45,929 bases of DNA from positions 1 through 45,929 of the forward strand of contig JAJQEU010000088.1 in the NCBI GenBank assembly GCA_021201535.1, read 5' to 3'. The position numbers were made by a program, and so were the translations under genes. This document shows positions 111 through 9,207 of the stretch, piece by piece (the first letter of the stretch is position 1; each line of letters starts with the position of its first letter). The DNA comes from Clostridiales bacterium (GTDB lineage Bacteria; Bacillota; Clostridia; Lachnospirales; Lachnospiraceae). The notes beneath the pieces were generated by a model, which worked only from the letters and a program-made list of their open reading frames with translations, did not search any database and was not told the DNA's origin.

Positions 111-125
111 GATTCTTTCCTCTGC

Positions 126-230
126 AATCCCGCCGCGGATTTTTACCCGATCATCTTCTCAATCCCGCCGTGCATTCTCACCCATTCACCTTCTCAATCC
201 CGCCGCGCGTTCTCACCCGTTCATCTTCTC
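126..230. repeat. Three tandem 35-bp repeats spanning the end of the ABC ATPase gene
   Basis: Three adjacent 35-bp units lie at 126-160, 161-195 and 196-230. Each starts AATCCCGCCG on the plus strand and ends with TTCTC; they differ at a handful of positions. The unit at 196-230 contains the last codons and the TGA stop of the ABC ATPase gene on the minus strand. The other two are imperfect copies of that gene end, each with its own in-frame-like stop. This looks like local tandem duplication of the gene's 3' end, placed just before the next gene. Confidence 0.85.
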
Positions 231-1955
231 ATAAGCACTGCAGACCTCGTCCGGTTCGCCGATCATGCGGAGTTTGCTTTTTTCAATCCAGACGACCTTC
301 GTACAGTTTTTCCGGATCACGGAGGTAGAGTGCGAGACGATCAGCACCGTCGACCCGCCGTGAATCATCTCCTGTATTCTGGCCTCGCTCTTTTTTCTGA
401 AAAACATGTCTCCGACGCTCAGGACTTCGTCCAGGATCAGTATCTCCGGCGTTTCTCTGGCTGTGGCGATGGCAAATCCCAGACGGCTGACCATGCCGGA
501 AGAATAGTTTTTGACACGCTCTTCCATAAAGCCCTCCAGCTCCGCAAACTTCACTATCTCATCATACTTCCGGTCTATATAATCCCTCGTGTAGCCGATC
601 AGCGCCCCGTTCAGATAGACATTCTCCCTGCCGGTCAGTTCCATATCAAATCCCGTTCCCAGAGTCAGAAGCTGAATCTTGCTTTTATCCACGGTAACGC
701 TTCCGCCGGTCGGTACCAGAACCCCTGAGATGATTTTCAGGATGGTGCTCTTGCCGGAGCCGTTCGTCCCGATGATACCGACTACCTCGCCCTTTCTGAC
801 ATCAAAGCTTATGTCGTCCAGCGCACAGAAGTATTCAAAGGACCTCTGCCTCTTCAAAGTGCGTATCACCAGTTCCTTGATACTGGAGGACTCATCCTTC
901 TCTCGCTTAAACTTCATCGTGATATGGCTGACCCGGATATCGATGTCGGCGTCGTCGTCCGGTGCATCGCTGTCCTCCCGGACGGCAGTATCCTCAGCTG
1001 CTGCCGGTGAACCTGTTTCTCCCTCTGTCTCTTCGCCCGCATTTTCCATTTGCCGCCCGCGGCGTTTTTTCCGTCTCTGTTCCCTGACCAGATGTACCTT
1101 GATCAATGACAGAATTATAAGCAGGAGTATCAGGGCGATCAGAGCGATCAGCGCAGCGAGAGACGCCCCGGACCATTCTGTATTCTGCAAAAACGGAAAC
1201 AGTGAACTGATTCCCTCCTCCGGCTCGGGAATCCCGGCATCCTCCGCCAAAGACGCGGGGCGGTACACATTCACCGTATATTCCGCCTGATTCCCATCCT
1301 CATCCGTGCAGGTGATTAAAATCTCGTTATCTCCCTCTTCCAGAGCGGTGTCAGATATTTCAACCTCCACATCGGACGGCGTGCAGGTAATTTCGGCTTC
1401 CGTCACATCCGGCTGCACATAGACCGTATATTCTGTCTTATCACTGTCAAAACCCGGTATCCCGACGCCGTTGATCGAGATGCTCTCCAGCAGACCGCCG
1501 CTCTCCGGCTGCCCGTTCACGTTCACCGACACATCGTCAGCTGTACTTTCCCACCCCATGCTGTCGGTGACGCTGATATCTGTGACGGATATGGCGGTTG
1601 CTTCCGTGGTAAGAGGGCTGAAATACAAATAAATGACATAATCGGTATCACCGACATCATCTACCTCCACTTCCACCTCGCTGTCACTCAAAACGATCCC
1701 GCCCTGCACATACTCCAACACCTCCGGATCATAGCCGACCACATAAGAAAAGGAGTCCATCTCCGTATCGGAGGTGATATAGATGCCGATCGGATAGCTC
1801 TCTCCCACTTCCCATGTATAGCTCTCCGATCCAAAGGAGACTTCCTCTCCCGCCGCGCTCACCGGCTGCGGAGTCAGAATCAACCATAAAATTCCGACGC
1901 AGAGGAAGAGGCTGAAAATCTTCCCCGCTCTCTGACATTTTTTCTGATTTATCAT
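213..1955 (-). CDS. Polysaccharide ABC exporter ATPase fused to secreted beta-sandwich region and membrane helix
   Basis: 580 residues. The C-terminal part (about 340-580) is an ABC ATPase of the Wzt/TagH type that powers polysaccharide export with the permease encoded just upstream. Walker A is GTNGSGKST (396-404), the signature YSSGM (484-488), Walker B ILILDE (505-510) and the H-loop SH (541-542). Unusually, it is preceded by a signal peptide (1-35), a cohesin-like beta region (about 38-148), a cadherin-like beta-sandwich repeat (about 155-232, with the PGFDSDKTEYTV pattern), one membrane helix (264-286) and a charged, acidic linker (290-340). The predicted topology is N-terminus outside, ATPase inside. 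Wzt proteins with carbohydrate-binding domains normally carry them C-terminally in the cytoplasm. All parts lie in one uninterrupted frame. The ATPase assignment is secure; the role of the outer region is unknown. Confidence 0.88.
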   Translation of the reverse strand: MINQKKCQRAGKIFSLFLCVGILWLILTPQPVSAAGEEVSFGSESYTWEVGESYPIGIYITSDTEMDSFSYVVGYDPEVLEYVQGGIVLSDSEVEVEVDDVGDTDYVIYLYFSPLTTEATAISVTDISVTDSMGWESTADDVSVNVNGQPESGGLLESISINGVGIPGFDSDKTEYTVYVQPDVTEAEITCTPSDVEVEISDTALEEGDNEILITCTDEDGNQAEYTVNVYRPASLAEDAGIPEPEEGISSLFPFLQNTEWSGASLAALIALIALILLLIILSLIKVHLVREQRRKKRRGRQMENAGEETEGETGSPAAAEDTAVREDSDAPDDDADIDIRVSHITMKFKREKDESSSIKELVIRTLKRQRSFEYFCALDDISFDVRKGEVVGIIGTNGSGKSTILKIISGVLVPTGGSVTVDKSKIQLLTLGTGFDMELTGRENVYLNGALIGYTRDYIDRKYDEIVKFAELEGFMEERVKNYSSGMVSRLGFAIATARETPEILILDEVLSVGDMFFRKKSEARIQEMIHGGSTVLIVSHSTSVIRKNCTKVVWIEKSKLRMIGEPDEVCSAYEKMNG

Positions 1956-2009
1956 AATCTGCCTCCAGATATGAGAAACATTTATATGTTGTTCTCTATC
2001 ATTCGTCTC

Positions 2010-2795
2010 CTACAGTTTCTCCATGATACGGTGCCGGTTTCTGTTAAAGCAGCACTGCCCGATCAGATACATGCCGAGGCCGAAGCAGACCATTTTCAGG
2101 ATCTCCGGAACCGCGGGGAATGAGTGCTCCAGCACCAGACAGCGGAATCCGTCAATATATACATACAAAGGATTACATCGAATGATCCGCTGCATGATCA
2201 GCGGCAGGCTTGAAACCGGATAAAAAAGCGCGCTCAGATACATCCAAAGTGTCAGAACAACGTTGTATAAGTGATTGACGTCCCCGAAAAAGACAAAGGC
2301 TGTCGACAAAATGTCAGCCATGCCCATACAAAACAGCATCTGCCAGAACACAATAAACGGGAAAAAAATCAGATATACACTCAGCGTCAGGTCTGTTACA
2401 ATCACAAAAAAAACATACACGATGCCAAACGCGATCAGCGAATACAGGAAATTGACAAATGCCGTATAGATCCGTGCCAGGACAAAAATCTGCATCGGGA
2501 ATTTTACCTTGATCAGCATCATTTTATTGTCCACGATCGCGGTCATGGATGTGTTGGTCGAGGTTGTAAACAGCGTCCACAAAACCGAACCGCACAGATA
2601 ATAGATCGGAAAATATTCTATGGATCTCCGAAACATGGTCGAAAAGATCAGGGATATCACAATCATCGACAACAGCGGATTCAGCACGCTCCATACGATA
2701 CCCAGTTTTGATCTGGCATATTTTCTTTTTATTTCTCTGGACGTCAGTTCCCGGATCACAAACCAGTATTGCTGACGCCGTTCCTTTTTATCCAT
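2010..2795 (-). CDS. ABC-2 type polysaccharide exporter permease (Wzm/TagG-like)
   Basis: 261 residues from ATG 2795. This start has an AGAAGAGAAG purine-rich site and overlaps the end of the upstream gene by 8 bp, suggesting translational coupling. A longer reading frame exists upstream but has no better start. The N-terminus REIKRKYARSKLGIVWSVLN is the amphipathic interface segment typical of ABC-2 polysaccharide permeases. About six hydrophobic helices follow, ending with the conserved-type NPLYVYIDGFR stretch. It should pair with the ATPase encoded downstream to move a lipid-linked polymer or oligosaccharide across the membrane. The exported glycan is not predictable from this sequence. 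Confidence 0.9.
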   Translation of the reverse strand: MDKKERRQQYWFVIRELTSREIKRKYARSKLGIVWSVLNPLLSMIVISLIFSTMFRRSIEYFPIYYLCGSVLWTLFTTSTNTSMTAIVDNKMMLIKVKFPMQIFVLARIYTAFVNFLYSLIAFGIVYVFFVIVTDLTLSVYLIFFPFIVFWQMLFCMGMADILSTAFVFFGDVNHLYNVVLTLWMYLSALFYPVSSLPLIMQRIIRCNPLYVYIDGFRCLVLEHSFPAVPEILKMVCFGLGMYLIGQCCFNRNRHRIMEKL

Positions 2796-4275
2796 CTTCT
2801 CTTCTACTCCGCATTCTGTTTTTTCGCTGATAAAGCAGGTATTTGTATCCGGCATATCGGCGCAGATGTCTCCCTACATGTCTGCCGCCCCGGACAGCGC
2901 TCCCTTCATACCAGGCGCTCTCCTTCACATGGCCTTTTCGGATCCCGAGCAGCCGAAGCGCCTTACTGACCGGATAGTTGTCCCGCAGCTCTCTCTGTGA
3001 CAGCTGCGCCGCAATCTGTTGTCCGCTCTCTTCCAGGACGTCGTCGGAAAACTGCAGTCTCCCGAATACTTCCGCCTCCTGTCTGGTAGGTTCTGCCATA
3101 AACAGTTTGAACAGGCGGTACACGGTGCGATGATTTTTCTCCTGATCCATGTGAGACAGATATGCCTTCATGTCTGTGCCGGGCGCCTTTTGCCCCACCG
3201 TTTCTCGGATCCGGTCCGCACGCGTCCCGATATAGTACAGGATCCGGTCCGTTTCCGCCTCCATGAACGCCCTGCGGTCGGGCGCAGTCTCCGCGAATAC
3301 CGGACGAAATCCTCCTTCTGTCTCCTCATATCCGAGCGTCATGCCGTGCGGTGCACTGAACACGCCCTCGAACAGACAGTTGCTGAAATAAACCTTTTCC
3401 CTCAGTCCGTTCGACGGAGAAAAATAATAGCAGTGATAGTCCTTTGCGGAAACACCGCCGGGAAGCTCATAGAGTCCCCAGTAATATCCCTCCAGCCGCC
3501 GTCCGACACCCGCGCCCGCGGATGGCAGAGCATCCTCCGCACGCAGATACCGCAGAACCTCATTCAGCACCTTCTGCATGGATCCCACCCAGCCGCTGTC
3601 AACCAGCGCAGCGGAAACATCTTCCAGCAGGCCTTCCTGACGGAGGTAGCCGGCCAGAGCCGGCATTGCCTGCTCCGAGTGCTGCCGGACAAGATCACAG
3701 AACGGCTCACACTGCTCCAGCCTGTGCCGGACCCGTCCAAGCTCTGCATAAGGGATGATCTCCCTCTCGCGGCCGTCTGACGCCAGCAGAGACAGGATCT
3801 GCCTTTCCTCCTCCGACGAAAGTCCGGCACGGCACAGGATTTTGTGCAGGGTAACGTCGATACCGCCCCGGCAGATATAATCCATTGCCTCATCCATATC
3901 CAGATGGAACACAGGAATCCTCACTGAGTAGCGGGAGCAGCACAGATAACGACATTGGATGGGCAGCCCGAACCTCTCACAGTAACAGGAGGCCGCGCGA
4001 TACATCAGGTATCCGTCCCTGGCCAGGAAATACAGTCTCTTTTTCCCGGAAATCACCGCTTCGCGAAGCACCCACAGCACAAAAGAATCCAGTGCCGGTG
4101 CGAGAACACAGTCGGTGACCGTCTCGAAAGCCTCCCTCTGCCCTTCATCCCGAAAAAAGATCTTCCCTTTCTGCTCTCCCTCCGCCGGTGTCTGTACCGA
4201 CAGGCGCAAATCCGGGTTTTTTTCCAGATATCCCATGTATTTTTCGAGTCTTGCTCTCTGTGAGTCTTTCCACAT
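2788..4275 (-). CDS. HAD-like hydrolase-related protein of polysaccharide loci (uncertain)
   Basis: 495 residues, soluble, with no signal peptide or membrane helix. The segment KKRLYFLARDGYLMYRAA (about residues 78-95) resembles the core of COG5610-type predicted HAD hydrolases found in capsule and teichoic acid clusters; I am not certain of that match. A second conserved-looking phrase is ALVDSGWVGSMQKVL in the middle. The ATG at 4275 has a good GAGGAAAGAG ribosome binding site, yet the gene then overlaps the upstream glycosyltransferase by 131 bp. An internal ATG at 4236 would still overlap. Its position between a glycosyltransferase and the exporter suggests a role in building or modifying the glycan, but this is inference. 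Confidence 0.6.
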   Translation of the reverse strand: MWKDSQRARLEKYMGYLEKNPDLRLSVQTPAEGEQKGKIFFRDEGQREAFETVTDCVLAPALDSFVLWVLREAVISGKKRLYFLARDGYLMYRAASCYCERFGLPIQCRYLCCSRYSVRIPVFHLDMDEAMDYICRGGIDVTLHKILCRAGLSSEEERQILSLLASDGREREIIPYAELGRVRHRLEQCEPFCDLVRQHSEQAMPALAGYLRQEGLLEDVSAALVDSGWVGSMQKVLNEVLRYLRAEDALPSAGAGVGRRLEGYYWGLYELPGGVSAKDYHCYYFSPSNGLREKVYFSNCLFEGVFSAPHGMTLGYEETEGGFRPVFAETAPDRRAFMEAETDRILYYIGTRADRIRETVGQKAPGTDMKAYLSHMDQEKNHRTVYRLFKLFMAEPTRQEAEVFGRLQFSDDVLEESGQQIAAQLSQRELRDNYPVSKALRLLGIRKGHVKESAWYEGSAVRGGRHVGRHLRRYAGYKYLLYQRKNRMRSRREDG

Positions 4276-5083
4276 GCATCTCTTTCCTCACCCGCAGTTT
4301 TATCCGGAACAGCAGTCCGCGCGGAACCAGACCCACGATCAGCGGTTTTATCACGCTGAAACATGTCCTGACATTCAGAATTTTCAGTCTTTGAAATCCC
4401 TCTTTTCGAATGCGGACTTCCTCGATCCGGTATCTGTATTTTCTACGCCGGTATGTATTGTCATCCTCCCGGTACTGAAAATAAAATTCCTGGAGGTTGT
4501 ATCCTCGTTTTCCTGCAGCGTGAAGTCTCATAAACAGTTCGTAATCCTCTCCCCGGTGCATCGGCCGATAGCCTCCGCTCTCTGTCAGAACCTCCCTGCG
4601 AAACATTACCGACGGATGTATATACGGGGAATAGCGCAGAAAATCTTTTCGGTCCGGCACTTCCGGCATCAACCGTGTCCCCCAGACGCCGTCCTCACGG
4701 ATCAGTTCCGTGTTGCATCCGACCCAGTCATATTCCGGATGACTCTCCAGGAACTCATACATGCGCTGCAGGCGCTCCGGCCTCGAAATATCGTCCGCAT
4801 CCATACGGGCCAGGTATCTTCCCCTCGCCATGCCGCTGCAGACATTCATCGACCGGGCCAGCCCCCGGTTTTCTTCACTGCGGCAATATCGGATCCGTCG
4901 GTCCGCCATCGCCATCTCACGGATCACAGACGCATACGGTTCCTCCGATCCGTCATCATACAGAATCAGCTCCCATTCCTGAAAGGTCTGGCTGAGAATC
5001 GACCGTACCGATTCCCGAAAATACTGACGGGAGTCAGGATTATAGACGCTCATCATAACACTGATTTCAACATTTGTCTGCAT
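4145..5083 (-). CDS. Glycosyltransferase family 2
   Basis: 312 residues from ATG 5083, chosen because GGGAGG lies 5 bases upstream; a longer frame starts at 5116 with a 4-bp overlap to the upstream gene. The GT-A fold signature is clear: VEISVMMSVYNPDSRQYFRE at the start, ILSQTFQEWELILYDDGS, and the DXD-like metal site ARMDADDISRPERL near residue 95. The phrase GGYRPMHRGEDYELFMRL is the usual acceptor-side ED motif. It should add one sugar to a lipid-linked precursor at the inner membrane face. The last 40 or so residues lie in the overlap with the next gene and look unlike a normal family ending, so the C-terminus may be an extension caused by a lost stop. Confidence 0.88.
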   Translation of the reverse strand: MQTNVEISVMMSVYNPDSRQYFRESVRSILSQTFQEWELILYDDGSEEPYASVIREMAMADRRIRYCRSEENRGLARSMNVCSGMARGRYLARMDADDISRPERLQRMYEFLESHPEYDWVGCNTELIREDGVWGTRLMPEVPDRKDFLRYSPYIHPSVMFRREVLTESGGYRPMHRGEDYELFMRLHAAGKRGYNLQEFYFQYREDDNTYRRRKYRYRIEEVRIRKEGFQRLKILNVRTCFSVIKPLIVGLVPRGLLFRIKLRVRKEMHVERLTESKTRKIHGISGKKPGFAPVGTDTGGGRAEREDLFSG

Positions 5084-5112
5084 CATTTCCTCCCATCTGT
5101 CTTTGAATCGCC

Positions 5113-6291
5113 TCATCCGCCTTCGATCAAAACATCCGTCTCGTGATACATCTGTTCCATAACATAAGCTGCGTATTTTCTGTCAAACTTCTCCGCGGAA
5201 GTTCTGCAATTCTTACGTATCACGGATTTCTCCTCCGGCGTCAGTCTGTCCCACTGCCGGAAAGCCGCAGCATAATCCTCCGGCGAGTCCGGGCGGCACA
5301 GCCAGCCGTTTTCACCCGGCAGGATATACTCTCTGGTACCCCGGTTATCCGCCGCTACCACAGGTACCCCGCAGGCCAGCGCCTCCAGCGCCGCCATGCC
5401 AAGCCCTTCACGCCTGGACGGAAAGAAAAACAGATCGGCCGCGCCATATATCTCTTCCGGCGCACTGCAGTACCCCGGCAAAATCGCCGTACCCTCCAGA
5501 TCATGCCGTCTGACCCATTGCTCCAGATTTTTTCTGACAGGTCCTTCCCCATACACAAGATAACGGAAGTTTTTCAGATCTGCGCCTTCCTCCCGCATAC
5601 GCGCCAGGGTTCTGAGTATCGCGATATGATTTTTATTCCGGTTTATCTCTCCTACAGAGAGGAACAGAATCTCATCCTCGCTGACACCCAGACGTTTTCT
5701 CACTTCCCGCCTCTGCTCATCCGAAATCGGGCGAAACTTTTTCAGATCCAGCCCCACTCCGGGGATATGATATACACGGCCATCCTCTTTTAAGCGAAAT
5801 GCAGACGCACTCTCAAAATCCTCACGGTTGATCACCACCAGAGCGTCCGTATGGCGGGCAAGTATCTTCTCCGCTGTATGAAAGATCAAATAGTCTTTCC
5901 GCGCACAGCCCCGGTAAAAATGAAACCCGTGAGCTGTATAGATCACCCGAACCCCCAGATCCCGGCAGCGGCGCCCTGCCAGCCTGCCGATCAGTCCGCC
6001 CACCGGTGTATGGCAGTGAATCAGCTGAATCTGTTCTTTTCGAATCAGTTTCTCCGTCATCCGAAGTGCTCTCGCATTCTGTCTCAGACAAAACAGAGAT
6101 TTTTCAATCGGTATCGGGTGCATTCGTACACCCCTTTGCGCAAGTTCAGCCGTGTCAAACTCATAGATCGGGACGTCACAGTTTGACGCGTAATGCACCT
6201 CATATCCCATATTCTGAAGGATCTGTACATCCTGCATTTCAAATTTCATAAGAAATCCACTCACCGTGGCAATAACCAGAGCCTTTTTCAT
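5113..6291 (-). CDS. Glycosyltransferase family 4 (GT-B fold)
   Basis: 392 residues. The N-terminal Rossmann domain starts KKALVIATVSGFLMKFEMQD, of the EpsD/CapM type. The C-terminal donor-binding domain carries LFLSVGEINRNKNHIAIL and the E-x7-E region FPSRREGLGMAALEALACGV, followed by NGWLCRPDSPEDYAAAF. It transfers a nucleotide-activated sugar with retention of configuration, most likely adding the second sugar of the repeat unit after the priming transferase. It starts 6 bp after the LCP gene stop, with a GGCGGAG-like site overlapping that stop, and so belongs to the same operon. Confidence 0.9.
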   Translation of the reverse strand: MKKALVIATVSGFLMKFEMQDVQILQNMGYEVHYASNCDVPIYEFDTAELAQRGVRMHPIPIEKSLFCLRQNARALRMTEKLIRKEQIQLIHCHTPVGGLIGRLAGRRCRDLGVRVIYTAHGFHFYRGCARKDYLIFHTAEKILARHTDALVVINREDFESASAFRLKEDGRVYHIPGVGLDLKKFRPISDEQRREVRKRLGVSEDEILFLSVGEINRNKNHIAILRTLARMREEGADLKNFRYLVYGEGPVRKNLEQWVRRHDLEGTAILPGYCSAPEEIYGAADLFFFPSRREGLGMAALEALACGVPVVAADNRGTREYILPGENGWLCRPDSPEDYAAAFRQWDRLTPEEKSVIRKNCRTSAEKFDRKYAAYVMEQMYHETDVLIEGG

Positions 6292-6297
6292 CTCCGC

Positions 6298-7791
6298 CTA
6301 CTCTTCCACCGAGACGATTTCATCATTCTCGACCGCTTCGATGAGTTCTATGGCATACTCTACGGTCTCCTGATCCGGCTCCATCACATAGACCTGCCTG
6401 CTTAAAGAATAAGTGGATGCCGTCGTTCCCGTGCCGTCGACACTATATGTCTGCACATCCCAGGAACCGCCCGCCGAGATCTGGTTACGCACCAGTGTGG
6501 ACAGATCCGTATAGGGCATATTTGTCTCAAAGCTGCCCTCCAGCCCCGACATGATATCGGAAAAATTATATAATACAGACGGCGTCTGCAGCTTCTGGAT
6601 CACACCCGTGATCACAGCCATCTGGTTTTCGCCCCTCTGGCGGTCACCTTCGGCAAAGGAATACCGCTCTCTTGCGAAAGCCAGTGCCTCTATGCCGTTC
6701 AGTTCATTTTCACCGACTACGTAATGGAAATCCGGTTCGACGTCAAACTCATACTCAGAGACAACGGTCACACCTCCCAGTGCGTCGATCAGCTCCTCAA
6801 ATCCGCTGAAATTGACCCTGAAATAATAGTCCAGCTCCACGCCGTACAGCATCTCCAGCGTATCCATGGACACTTCCACGCCATACAGGCCCGCATGGGT
6901 CAGCTTGTCCTTTACGCCATCGGAAATCGATAACGGTACATAGTAATCGCGCGGTGTTGATATGAGCAGCATCTGCCTGGTATTGGTGTTTACGACAGCG
7001 ATAATATTGACATCGCTGCGGCTCTTCGTTGAGATCGCGCCATAGGTATCAATTCCGCTGATATACATAGTAAAAACGCCGTAGCCGCTGATGCCGGCCT
7101 CCGTATCCTCATCCGTCTCCGTCGTCTCCACCTCGTAACTCCACTCATAGGATGCAATCTCTTTTACCTGATCCTCAAAATCCTCATATCCGTCCAGTTC
7201 AGAGATCACTTCCACATATTGTTCACTCATAACGATGGCGCCGCACTCCTGACTGAGCAGGGCATCCGCCAGGTCGTCCATTCCCGCGTAAGTCTCCACC
7301 TGAACGATACTGTCCAGCTCCGTATTGATCTGAACCACTGCGTTGTCCGTATCTTCCCTCTCGATCGATTCCAGAATGCCAAAGACATAACCCTCCGTAT
7401 CCGCGATCGACTCCGCCGGGTCGTCCGTCAGCACATAGACGCCCACGCTGGCAACCTCTTCCGTCGTATCCGTGATGTCCTGCAATGTCGTGGTAAGAGT
7501 TCCCACGTAGTATCCCGCGGCCAGAAGCAGCGCGCTGACAGCCAGCGCGATCACCGCGCCGATCAGGAAACGAACCGGCCGTATCTTTTTCTTCATCAGT
7601 AAGCGGCAGACAACAATCAGAACCGCCAGCACCGCCATGCCGGCGATCAACATTTTTTCCGGCACAAGAGCTGACTGATGCAGAATATATACCGCCGCCG
7701 CTGATATGACGATCTGAATCACCGTTATGATCCAGCCTGCGGCAGTCCATGCCGGCCGTTTTCTGTTATTCTTATTTTCTCCTGATACCAT
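6298..7791 (-). CDS. LytR-CpsA-Psr (LCP) family cell wall glycopolymer ligase
   Basis: 497 residues from ATG 7791, preceded by AGGGAAAG; an upstream ATG at 7824 would add 11 residues and overlap the upstream gene more. Three hydrophobic helices (about 16-37, 46-65, 73-95) precede a large outer domain. The LCP core shows DVNIIAVVNTNTRQMLLIST, PRDYYVPL, HAGLYGVEVSMDTLEMLYGV and the arginine-rich ALAFARERYSFAEGDRQRGE that binds the polyprenyl pyrophosphate head group. LCP proteins transfer glycopolymers from undecaprenyl pyrophosphate to peptidoglycan or another wall acceptor. Three helices rather than one is typical of the CpsA branch. Its presence suggests the polymer made here is attached to the cell wall. 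Confidence 0.92.
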   Translation of the reverse strand: MVSGENKNNRKRPAWTAAGWIITVIQIVISAAAVYILHQSALVPEKMLIAGMAVLAVLIVVCRLLMKKKIRPVRFLIGAVIALAVSALLLAAGYYVGTLTTTLQDITDTTEEVASVGVYVLTDDPAESIADTEGYVFGILESIEREDTDNAVVQINTELDSIVQVETYAGMDDLADALLSQECGAIVMSEQYVEVISELDGYEDFEDQVKEIASYEWSYEVETTETDEDTEAGISGYGVFTMYISGIDTYGAISTKSRSDVNIIAVVNTNTRQMLLISTPRDYYVPLSISDGVKDKLTHAGLYGVEVSMDTLEMLYGVELDYYFRVNFSGFEELIDALGGVTVVSEYEFDVEPDFHYVVGENELNGIEALAFARERYSFAEGDRQRGENQMAVITGVIQKLQTPSVLYNFSDIMSGLEGSFETNMPYTDLSTLVRNQISAGGSWDVQTYSVDGTGTTASTYSLSRQVYVMEPDQETVEYAIELIEAVENDEIVSVEE

Positions 7792-9207
7792 GTCTTTCCC
7801 TGTCTCTCCTCCTGCCTTTATCATGTTCCGTTTCTCTGATCATGCTATGTATATCTGAATTGATCCAGTAATTGTCGTCCATTCCCTCTGTATTCTCCTT
7901 CTGAAACAGAATTCGAATCGTCAGGATCAGAATCTTTATATCCATCCCGTAGGAATAATTATATATATAATAGAGATCGTATTTAATCTTATCTTCCGGC
8001 TCTGAATTGTAACGACCGTAAATCTGTGCATATCCGGTCAGTCCGCCCCTCACCCGCAGCCGCTCGGAAAACTCGGGAATACGCTCGGTGTATGCCCTGA
8101 TGAACTCCATTCTCTCCGGTCTCGGTCCTACCAGGGACATCTCTCCCTTCAGAATATTGACCAGCTGCGGCAGTTCATCAAAGTGAATATTTCGTATCAC
8201 TTTACCGACTCTGGTCACTCTGATATCCAGCTTTGTCGTCAGCTGTATTCCGTCTTTTTCCGCGTCCGTCTGCATACTTCGAAATTTATACATGCGGAAC
8301 GGCTTTCCGCCCCGCGTCACTCTCTCCTGTGAATAGATAACGGGCCCCCCGTCGTCCAGTTTGATCGCAATCGCAATAACCGCCATCGCCGGGCTGAATA
8401 AAGCCAGCATAAAAAGTGAGACCGCGATATCCGTCAATCTCTTTGCAGCCGCCTGCATACCCGTGATCTCAAGCTTCGGATAACGCAGCAGAAGCTTATC
8501 GTGCAGCTGCATGACAGAAGCATTCTGAATGTAGATATCCGACACCTTAGGGACACTGTAACACTCAATCCCCCGGCTCATGCAGAATTTAATCATGGAA
8601 TTCCTCACATCCACGGGAATATCTCCCAGAAACACAATCGAAGAAGTCTGCACGGCATTTGTAATGGCTTCCAGGCCGACCGAATACTCCATCGACCGGC
8701 TGATTTTAAAAAACAGGTTTATCGTATTATTGATCCTGGTGAACTCTGTCTCATCCTCACGGTTTCCGTATATAAAAACAGCTTCCCTGCAAAACTGGAA
8801 CTTCTCATAGATCCTGTAGCAGAAAAGAATCCAAAGCAGTCCGATCAGGCTCTCCAGAATCACGGACAGCATAAAAAGAAATACCACTCGTTTCATGAAA
8901 AGGGAAGTAAAAATCACCGCAAAACAGCCAACAATAAAGTTCAGACAAACCGAACCCAGAAAAAATCCGAAAATAAGATCTAAGATCCTCCTCTCCCCGA
9001 TCCGAAAAGATTCGAAGCAGAAAAGAAGTACAAAAAAAACAGACAATAGCACAGGCAAAGCAGATATATCGCTGTATCGCTAACATCAAAACGCATCATA
9101 TGCCATATATCATTCAGAAAAAGGACGGTATAGGCCAAACCATAATATAATAAAAACATTACTGCAACGGAAGACCACTTTACAATCAAAAATTTATTAC
9201 TGTTCAC
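7772..9207 (-). CDS. Polyprenyl-phosphate sugar-1-phosphate transferase, split by a frameshift
   Basis: The catalytic part is clear: KLDDGGPVIYSQERVT, GGKPFRMYKFRSM and HFDELPQLVNILKGEMSLVG with PRPE, the bacterial sugar transferase (WbaP/CpsE) signature. This enzyme primes polymer synthesis by loading a sugar phosphate on undecaprenyl phosphate. The frame holding it (7772-9058) opens only at a TTG inside a membrane helix. The missing N-terminal helices (NSNKFLIVKWSSVAVMFLL and onward) lie in another frame from a GTG at 9207 with GGGGCAGAA upstream. The two join cleanly if one T is added to, or the ribosome slips back one base on, the eight-T run at 9032-9039. The gene is either phase-variable, translated by a -1 shift, broken, or mis-sequenced. 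It heads the operon. Confidence 0.85.

Follow-up and report, generated by a model that had tools for sequence, protein, structure and literature searches.

Can the ATPase of a polysaccharide exporter carry, in the same chain, a module that lies outside the cell? This question is raised by a gene at positions 213 to 1,955 (minus strand) of contig JAJQEU010000088.1 (assembly GCA_021201535.1), from a Clostridiales bacterium of the family Lachnospiraceae. The whole stretch of 45,929 nucleotides that was analysed, equal in length to the contig, is called the window below. The initial annotation of this DNA had described one uninterrupted frame with a signal peptide, cohesin-like and cadherin-like regions, a membrane helix, an acidic linker and a complete ATPase. 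Profile matches, hydropathy and a structure model confirmed these parts, among them the membrane helix on which the proposal hung, and the tethering of an outer beta-sandwich module to an exporter ATPase recurs in 26 distinct proteins. The gene and its parts are the following:

213..1955, minus strand: fusion gene, 580 residues; ectodomain, membrane helix and Wzt/TagH-type ATPase in one frame
1962..1966, minus strand: ribosome-binding motif GGAGG, 6 nt 5' of the ATG
1854..1955, minus strand: signal peptide, residues 1-34; hydrophobic at residues 10-28, ending in ...PVSA (hydropathy; predicted helix 5-27)
1506..1850, minus strand: cohesin-fold domain, residues 36-150 (sub-threshold profile match and fold comparison)
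1257..1487, minus strand: cadherin-like beta-sandwich domain PF12733, residues 157-233 (profile match, model)
1101..1169, minus strand: core of the predicted membrane helix, residues 263-285 (hydropathy; predicted helix 263-308)
951..1100, minus strand: basic juxtamembrane stretch leading into a disordered acidic linker, residues 286-335 (sequence, model)
213..950, minus strand: complete nucleotide-binding domain (NBD), residues 336-580 (GTNGSGKST, SSGM, ILILDE, SHS)

The NBD has the Walker A, signature, Walker B and H-loop motifs and is related to Wzt and TagH, which assigns it to the ATPases of type V polysaccharide ATP-binding cassette (ABC) exporters. The chain stops with this domain at residue 580, with no C-terminal extension, and the protein does not reach the TagH equivalogs of NCBIfam (PRK13545, 197.3 bits vs a cut-off of 538; PRK13546, 181.8 vs 320). 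Among the outer domains, which we call the arm, the second is assigned by profile, with a PF12733 score of 36.3 bits above the curated cut-off of 24.2. For the first, PF00963 (Cohesin) scores 16.6 bits, the curated cut-off being 24.1, and, of 16 fused genomes, 5 gave a match of this profile to the fused gene at E<=0.01 and 2 a match above cut-off. The cohesin fold is assigned by fold comparison of the ectodomain modelled alone, in which the aligned rows span mostly residues 1-116, that is, the first outer domain; the ectodomain was modelled alone because comparison of the full model returned almost only alignments of the NBD. A profile search of the PDB with the ectodomain gave only weak matches (8q2h, 0.0015; the cohesin entries 5nrm, 0.02, and 5nrk, 0.021). 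A 35-bp tandem repeat (3.1 copies, window 125-231) covers the final codons of the gene, and the contig ends just past it.

The fusion is real and recurrent. The 26 distinct fused proteins include the window's, each distinct NBD being counted once, and a 98% copy of the window protein (L041) comes in addition. In a scan of a species-level genome collection, limited to stretches with one of six exact 8-residue patterns, 82 relatives were confirmed and 80 loci retained, namely 14 with the full fusion, 5 with the helix and no outer domain, 4 cut at their 5' end and 57 plain ones, whose state was assigned by hydropathy and frame. The named isolate Mediterraneibacter glycyrrhizinilyticus (L055) belongs to the fused set and Coprococcus catus (L058) to the helix-only set. 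Among 397 genomes sampled from the family, 117 contained a close ATPase (E<=1e-70) and 10 the fusion, the window genome among them; here the best 30 matches and two further long frames were read, and the remainder was judged by frame length (<=389 residues). Of 392 genomes sampled from the order, a match at E<=1e-75 was present in 29, and 10 were fused (4 already counted), all within the window's family and including the single-contig genome G708. None of the nine matching genomes outside the family is fused, since their frames measure only 244-315 residues.

Some long frames were rejected as fusions: those of G007 and G069 proved on reading to be C-terminal extensions, and that of L074, which crosses the permease region, was read as a mis-set start and counted as plain. 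Related ATPases with C-terminal extensions of ~350-420 residues in place of the N-terminal arm were also observed (L166 1464-3239, L167 1901-3883). The initial annotation had proposed to look for the two parts as separate genes in relatives. In the 35 and 17 relative loci read, outer part and ATPase were never neighbouring separate genes, similarity to the ectodomain occurring only within the ATPase frame; such reading could miss very divergent ectodomains, and a simple gene caller lost the ATPase frame in L067 and L068, both of which were read otherwise.

We then asked how the fused, helix-only and plain forms are related. NBD trees were made without the fused parts, leaving out identical NBDs, the 5'-cut L053, L072, L105 and L118, the near-copy L041, and matches of <35% identity or <200 residues. 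A broad, quick tree of 97 rows places 20 fused and 6 helix-only rows, together with the doubtful L131, within a single clade of 52 that has full support and is nested among plain ATPases. A careful tree of 68 rows, with the new fused genomes added, gives a clade of 60 rows (support 100/100), made up of 26 fused, 7 helix-only (L131, doubtful, included) and 27 plain ones. On this tree the fused label changes 15 times, at least 9 of the changes being forced by starred branches, and the helix-only label 7 times, at least 5 being forced; such counts alone do not separate gain from loss. Sisters of unlike state are found in L159 (fused) and L160 (plain) (100/97), in L054 (fused) and L060 (helix-only) (100/96), and in L139 (fused) and L140 (helix-only) (97/95). 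The helix start FNVYFV of L139 is retained in L140, and the LExFxLFDDRE-type linker motif of L054 in L060 and in the helix-less L050. On the basis of these sisters and leftover motifs, we read the pattern as one fusion and repeated loss rather than repeated gain; a single fusion followed by repeated loss of the arm, some relatives keeping the membrane anchor only, fits best. Most likely, the ATPase gene fused once, in or near Lachnospiraceae, with a gene for a cohesin/cadherin surface protein. An acidic motif just before the NBD (L050 5998-6900, L060 4210-5259, L054 5971-7806) is kept where the arm, or both arm and helix, are absent, and may for this reason have a function independent of them.

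The outer part is constrained. Its ratio of nonsynonymous to synonymous substitution rates (dN/dS) is 0.26 for window-L041, 0.19 for window-L040, 0.10 for L044-L045, 0.26 for L062-L065 and 0.26 for L068-L069, as compared with 0 to 0.046 for the NBD in the same five pairs; these values are rough because dS is ~0.87 or more in four of the five. The ectodomain is thus under purifying selection and evolves faster than the NBD. Five residues (G42, Y46, Y75, G85 and G208) are identical in 15 of 15 aligned ectodomains, the near-copy L041 included.

Ectodomain matches (E<=0.001) occur in 160 of the 397 genomes of the family sample, and a profile built from the fused ectodomains matches 23 unfused proteins. 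Nearly all of these have hydrophobic helices at both the N-terminus and the C-terminus, and many have an acidic tail. A Pfam check of five gave cohesin above cut-off in 2 and below in 3, and PF12733 above cut-off in 2. Several adjoin a frame with a C-terminal dockerin. Among five such neighbours scanned, Dockerin_1 is above cut-off in L034 (E 7.5e-16), L036 (1.8e-15), L013 and L039 and just below in L022, and PF12733 matches all five (L036 below cut-off); the locus edge truncates them at the N-terminus, so that secretion was not seen. Given these unfused relatives beside dockerin proteins, the outer module would seem to derive from a surface receptor for docking. The arrangement itself is a two-gene surface system, in which a cadherin-like/dockerin frame stands beside a membrane-anchored cohesin/cadherin-type protein (L034 3-1433 and 1483-3426; also L036, L013, L022 and L039). 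Weak glucosaminidase matches, below cut-off, were seen in the dockerin neighbours of L034 and L022.

How does this protein compare with known exporters? In PMC11466899, the NBD of Bacillus subtilis TagGH is described, partly on the basis of AlphaFold, as followed by a C-terminal membrane helix, a flexible linker and an extracellular SH3b-like domain. The premise of the initial annotation that Wzt ATPases are cytosolic is therefore incomplete. The NBD subunit is named TagG in the table and prose of PMC11466899 and TagH in PDB entry 7dd0; we call it TagH. In both TagH and the window protein, one helix and a flexible linker connect a type V exporter NBD with a domain outside the cell. However, the order in TagH is NBD, helix and SH3b-like domain, whereas the window protein has cohesin and cadherin-like domains, helix, linker and NBD, so that the outer folds differ and the chain orders are mirror images. 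With its helix before the NBD and neither C-terminal helix nor SH3b-like domain after it, the window protein lacks the defining order of TagH and is thus not a TagH member, although the tether is alike. TarH would have no helix and outer domain, as the chains of Staphylococcus aureus (9cfl, 264 residues) and A. herbarius (6jbh, 270 residues) are too short. Wzt of O-antigen exporters (7k2t, 8dne) carries a cytosolic C-terminal carbohydrate-binding domain, which is absent from the window protein, where zero residues follow the NBD. The cohesin modules of Clostridium perfringens (2jh2, 2vo8, 2w1n) come, by title, from glycoside hydrolases or a cohesin-like module and not from an ABC ATPase, and the unfused helix proteins of L013-L039 share a homologous ectodomain, a helix and often an acidic tail but lack the ATPase, several of them standing beside a dockerin protein. 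No report of such an ATPase with an outer domain of cohesin or cadherin-like type, or with one at its N-terminus, was found in the literature covered, which leaves out most subscription journals; in a term search of PMC7078476, neither an extracellular domain nor SH3 came up. Altogether, a tethered exporter NBD is already known from TagH, and the window protein shows it in an N-terminal, mirror-image form with a different outer module.

ATPase subunits of the Wzt/TagH class are not always purely cytosolic, and the label "ABC transporter ATP-binding protein" can therefore hide part of a protein. An interesting possibility, which we put forward tentatively and hold to be less probable than its negation, is that a cohesin-type surface receptor was built into the exporter motor and couples export spatially to a partner outside, that the same solution evolved independently and in mirror image in TagH, and that arm-bearing, helix-only and bare forms make up a series within one operon family.

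The gene neighbourhood gives the context in which the arm would act. Upstream of the fusion gene lie:

2010..2795, minus strand: exporter permease (ABC2_membrane, Wzm-like; PF01061, 73.2 bits), directly upstream of the fusion gene
2788..4275, minus strand: conserved operon protein of 495 residues, with no Pfam match (E<=0.1) or NCBIfam match (E<=0.001)
4145..5116, minus strand: family 2 glycosyltransferase (profile match)
5113..6291, minus strand: glycosyltransferase group 1, GT4-type (profile match)
6298..7824, minus strand: LCP-family glycopolymer transferase (TIGR00350 above cut-off; best match the CpsA equivalog, below its cut-off)
7772..9058, minus strand: priming polyprenyl glycosylphosphotransferase (EPS_sugtrans above cut-off; TTG start uncertain)

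The gap between permease and fusion gene is 54 bases, and an ABC-2 permease next to the ATPase, within a glycan operon, agrees with a type V exporter. The gene order GT4, GT2, 495-residue protein, permease and ATPase is retained in relatives, fused or not, and fused ATPases usually adjoin the exporter permease within this conserved glycan operon. The genes downstream of the relatives' ATPase differ and include GlfT2-type glycosyltransferases and DUF6270. Judging from operon content only, the exported substrate would be a glycan.

In Gram-positives, the transfer of glycan from an exporter to the wall-attaching machinery is poorly understood. We propose, with a confidence that stops a little short of an even chance, that the protein is the ATPase subunit of an exporter of lipid-linked surface glycan and bears, close to where the polymer leaves, an arm on a flexible tether that serves docking or hand-over. 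The signal peptide would take the N-terminus across the membrane and leave the cohesin-fold and cadherin-like domains outside, while a single helix would cross the membrane and the flexible acidic linker would hold the ATPase at the inner face. With two ATPases in each exporter of this kind (TagG2H2 in PMC11466899), two arms would stand on the outer face beside the polymer exit. They could bind the glycan as it emerges, or else a partner in the wall or outside the cytoplasm such as an LCP transferase, and this binding would raise local capture or hand-over, the helix keeping the ATPase at the membrane. The linkers measure 27-197 residues (median 70; 26 fused proteins) and that of the window model is disordered (predicted local distance difference test score, pLDDT, ~32), which fits a tether gathering a partner or polymer, not a rigid lever. 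Relatives without the arm, or without arm and anchor, are natural variants in which the contribution of the outer module could be tested.

Several points weigh against this proposal. The topology is a predicted one. The second outer domain varies: of the 19 fused proteins scanned, 9 have PF12733 above cut-off, 3 have it below, and 7 give no match at E<=0.01. As relatives that share the operon manage without the arm, export as such does not require it. In the window operon, the LCP transferase would make an attractive partner, and an LCP gene lies within 10 kb in 8 of 26 fused, 2 of 27 plain and 0 of 7 helix-only rows, counts that were obtained with unequal flanks and some contigs cut near the gene (e.g. 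L056, L130, L142, L145). A test on independent pairs is not significant (~1.8 of 9 pairs differ, median p 0.5), so that across relatives, kinship allowed for, such a partner is not supported and we do not claim it. As for the single fusion, the best tree of 20 fused and 23 unfused ectodomains does not unite the fused rows in one clade (3 changes), though a single clade is not rejected (approximately unbiased, AU, p 0.297).

On the other hand, one would wonder whether the membrane helix alone is useful, the outer domains being dispensable and left over from the surface protein that donated them. The seven relatives with helix and without outer domain (L131 doubtful), at least 5 changes to this state being forced, speak for such a tether, as does L140 with the helix motif of its sister. 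They suggest that holding the ATPase at the membrane is of use on its own, or that the anchor is the last part to be lost. However, purifying selection on the ectodomains and their five invariant residues are at odds with a remnant, and plain relatives persist with no helix at all. We thus consider this explanation improbable, though it deserves to be kept in mind.

Could the arm instead be a sensor? The initial annotation had suggested that the outer module could sense exported polymer, the state of the wall or a surface partner and signal to the ATPase across the membrane; in this reading the helix would pass on a change in ATPase activity, and a single chain does join the outside to the ATPase. 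Signalling now appears unlikely, as the linker is disordered in the one model and varies greatly in length across the 26 proteins, and helix-only and plain relatives have the same operon.

The same annotation had offered anchoring to an outer assembly, and this part stands as possible. In its most specific form, the cohesin would hold a dockerin-bearing protein at the exporter, as its fold, the unfused paralogues beside Dockerin_1 proteins (L034, L036) and the dockerins of some fused genomes would allow. Nevertheless, the window genome has no dockerin at E<=0.01, like 17 of 25 fused genomes counted with it. Dockerins at this threshold were found in 8 of the 25 (window 0/1, then 1/9 and 7/15), 6 of them above cut-off (G307, G610, G543, G708, G716, G717), a share no higher than in the helix-only or plain genomes (3 of 8), and in 3 of 3 genomes with unfused pairs (one below cut-off); draft genomes may miss some dockerins. 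Moreover, in G543 and G610 the dockerin adjoins an unfused cohesin. Dockerin use by the fused version is doubtful, and we give docking of this kind little chance. Finally, the contig of this draft genome ends 212 bases past the fusion gene, but the idea that two genes were joined through a fault of assembly or reading frame is contradicted by 25 further distinct fused proteins, isolate L055 and single-contig G708 included, and by a dN/dS far below 1 across the fusion, and its probability is negligible.

Two further arrangements of fused exporters were observed. Two permease genes follow the ATPase in G610, G543, G708 and G304 and also in the plain G702; such a pair behind the fused ATPase in loci L159, L161, L168 and L169 suggests a heterodimeric permease. 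One genome carries two fused exporters (L044 and L045) on the same contig, ~44 kb apart and in separate glycan operons.
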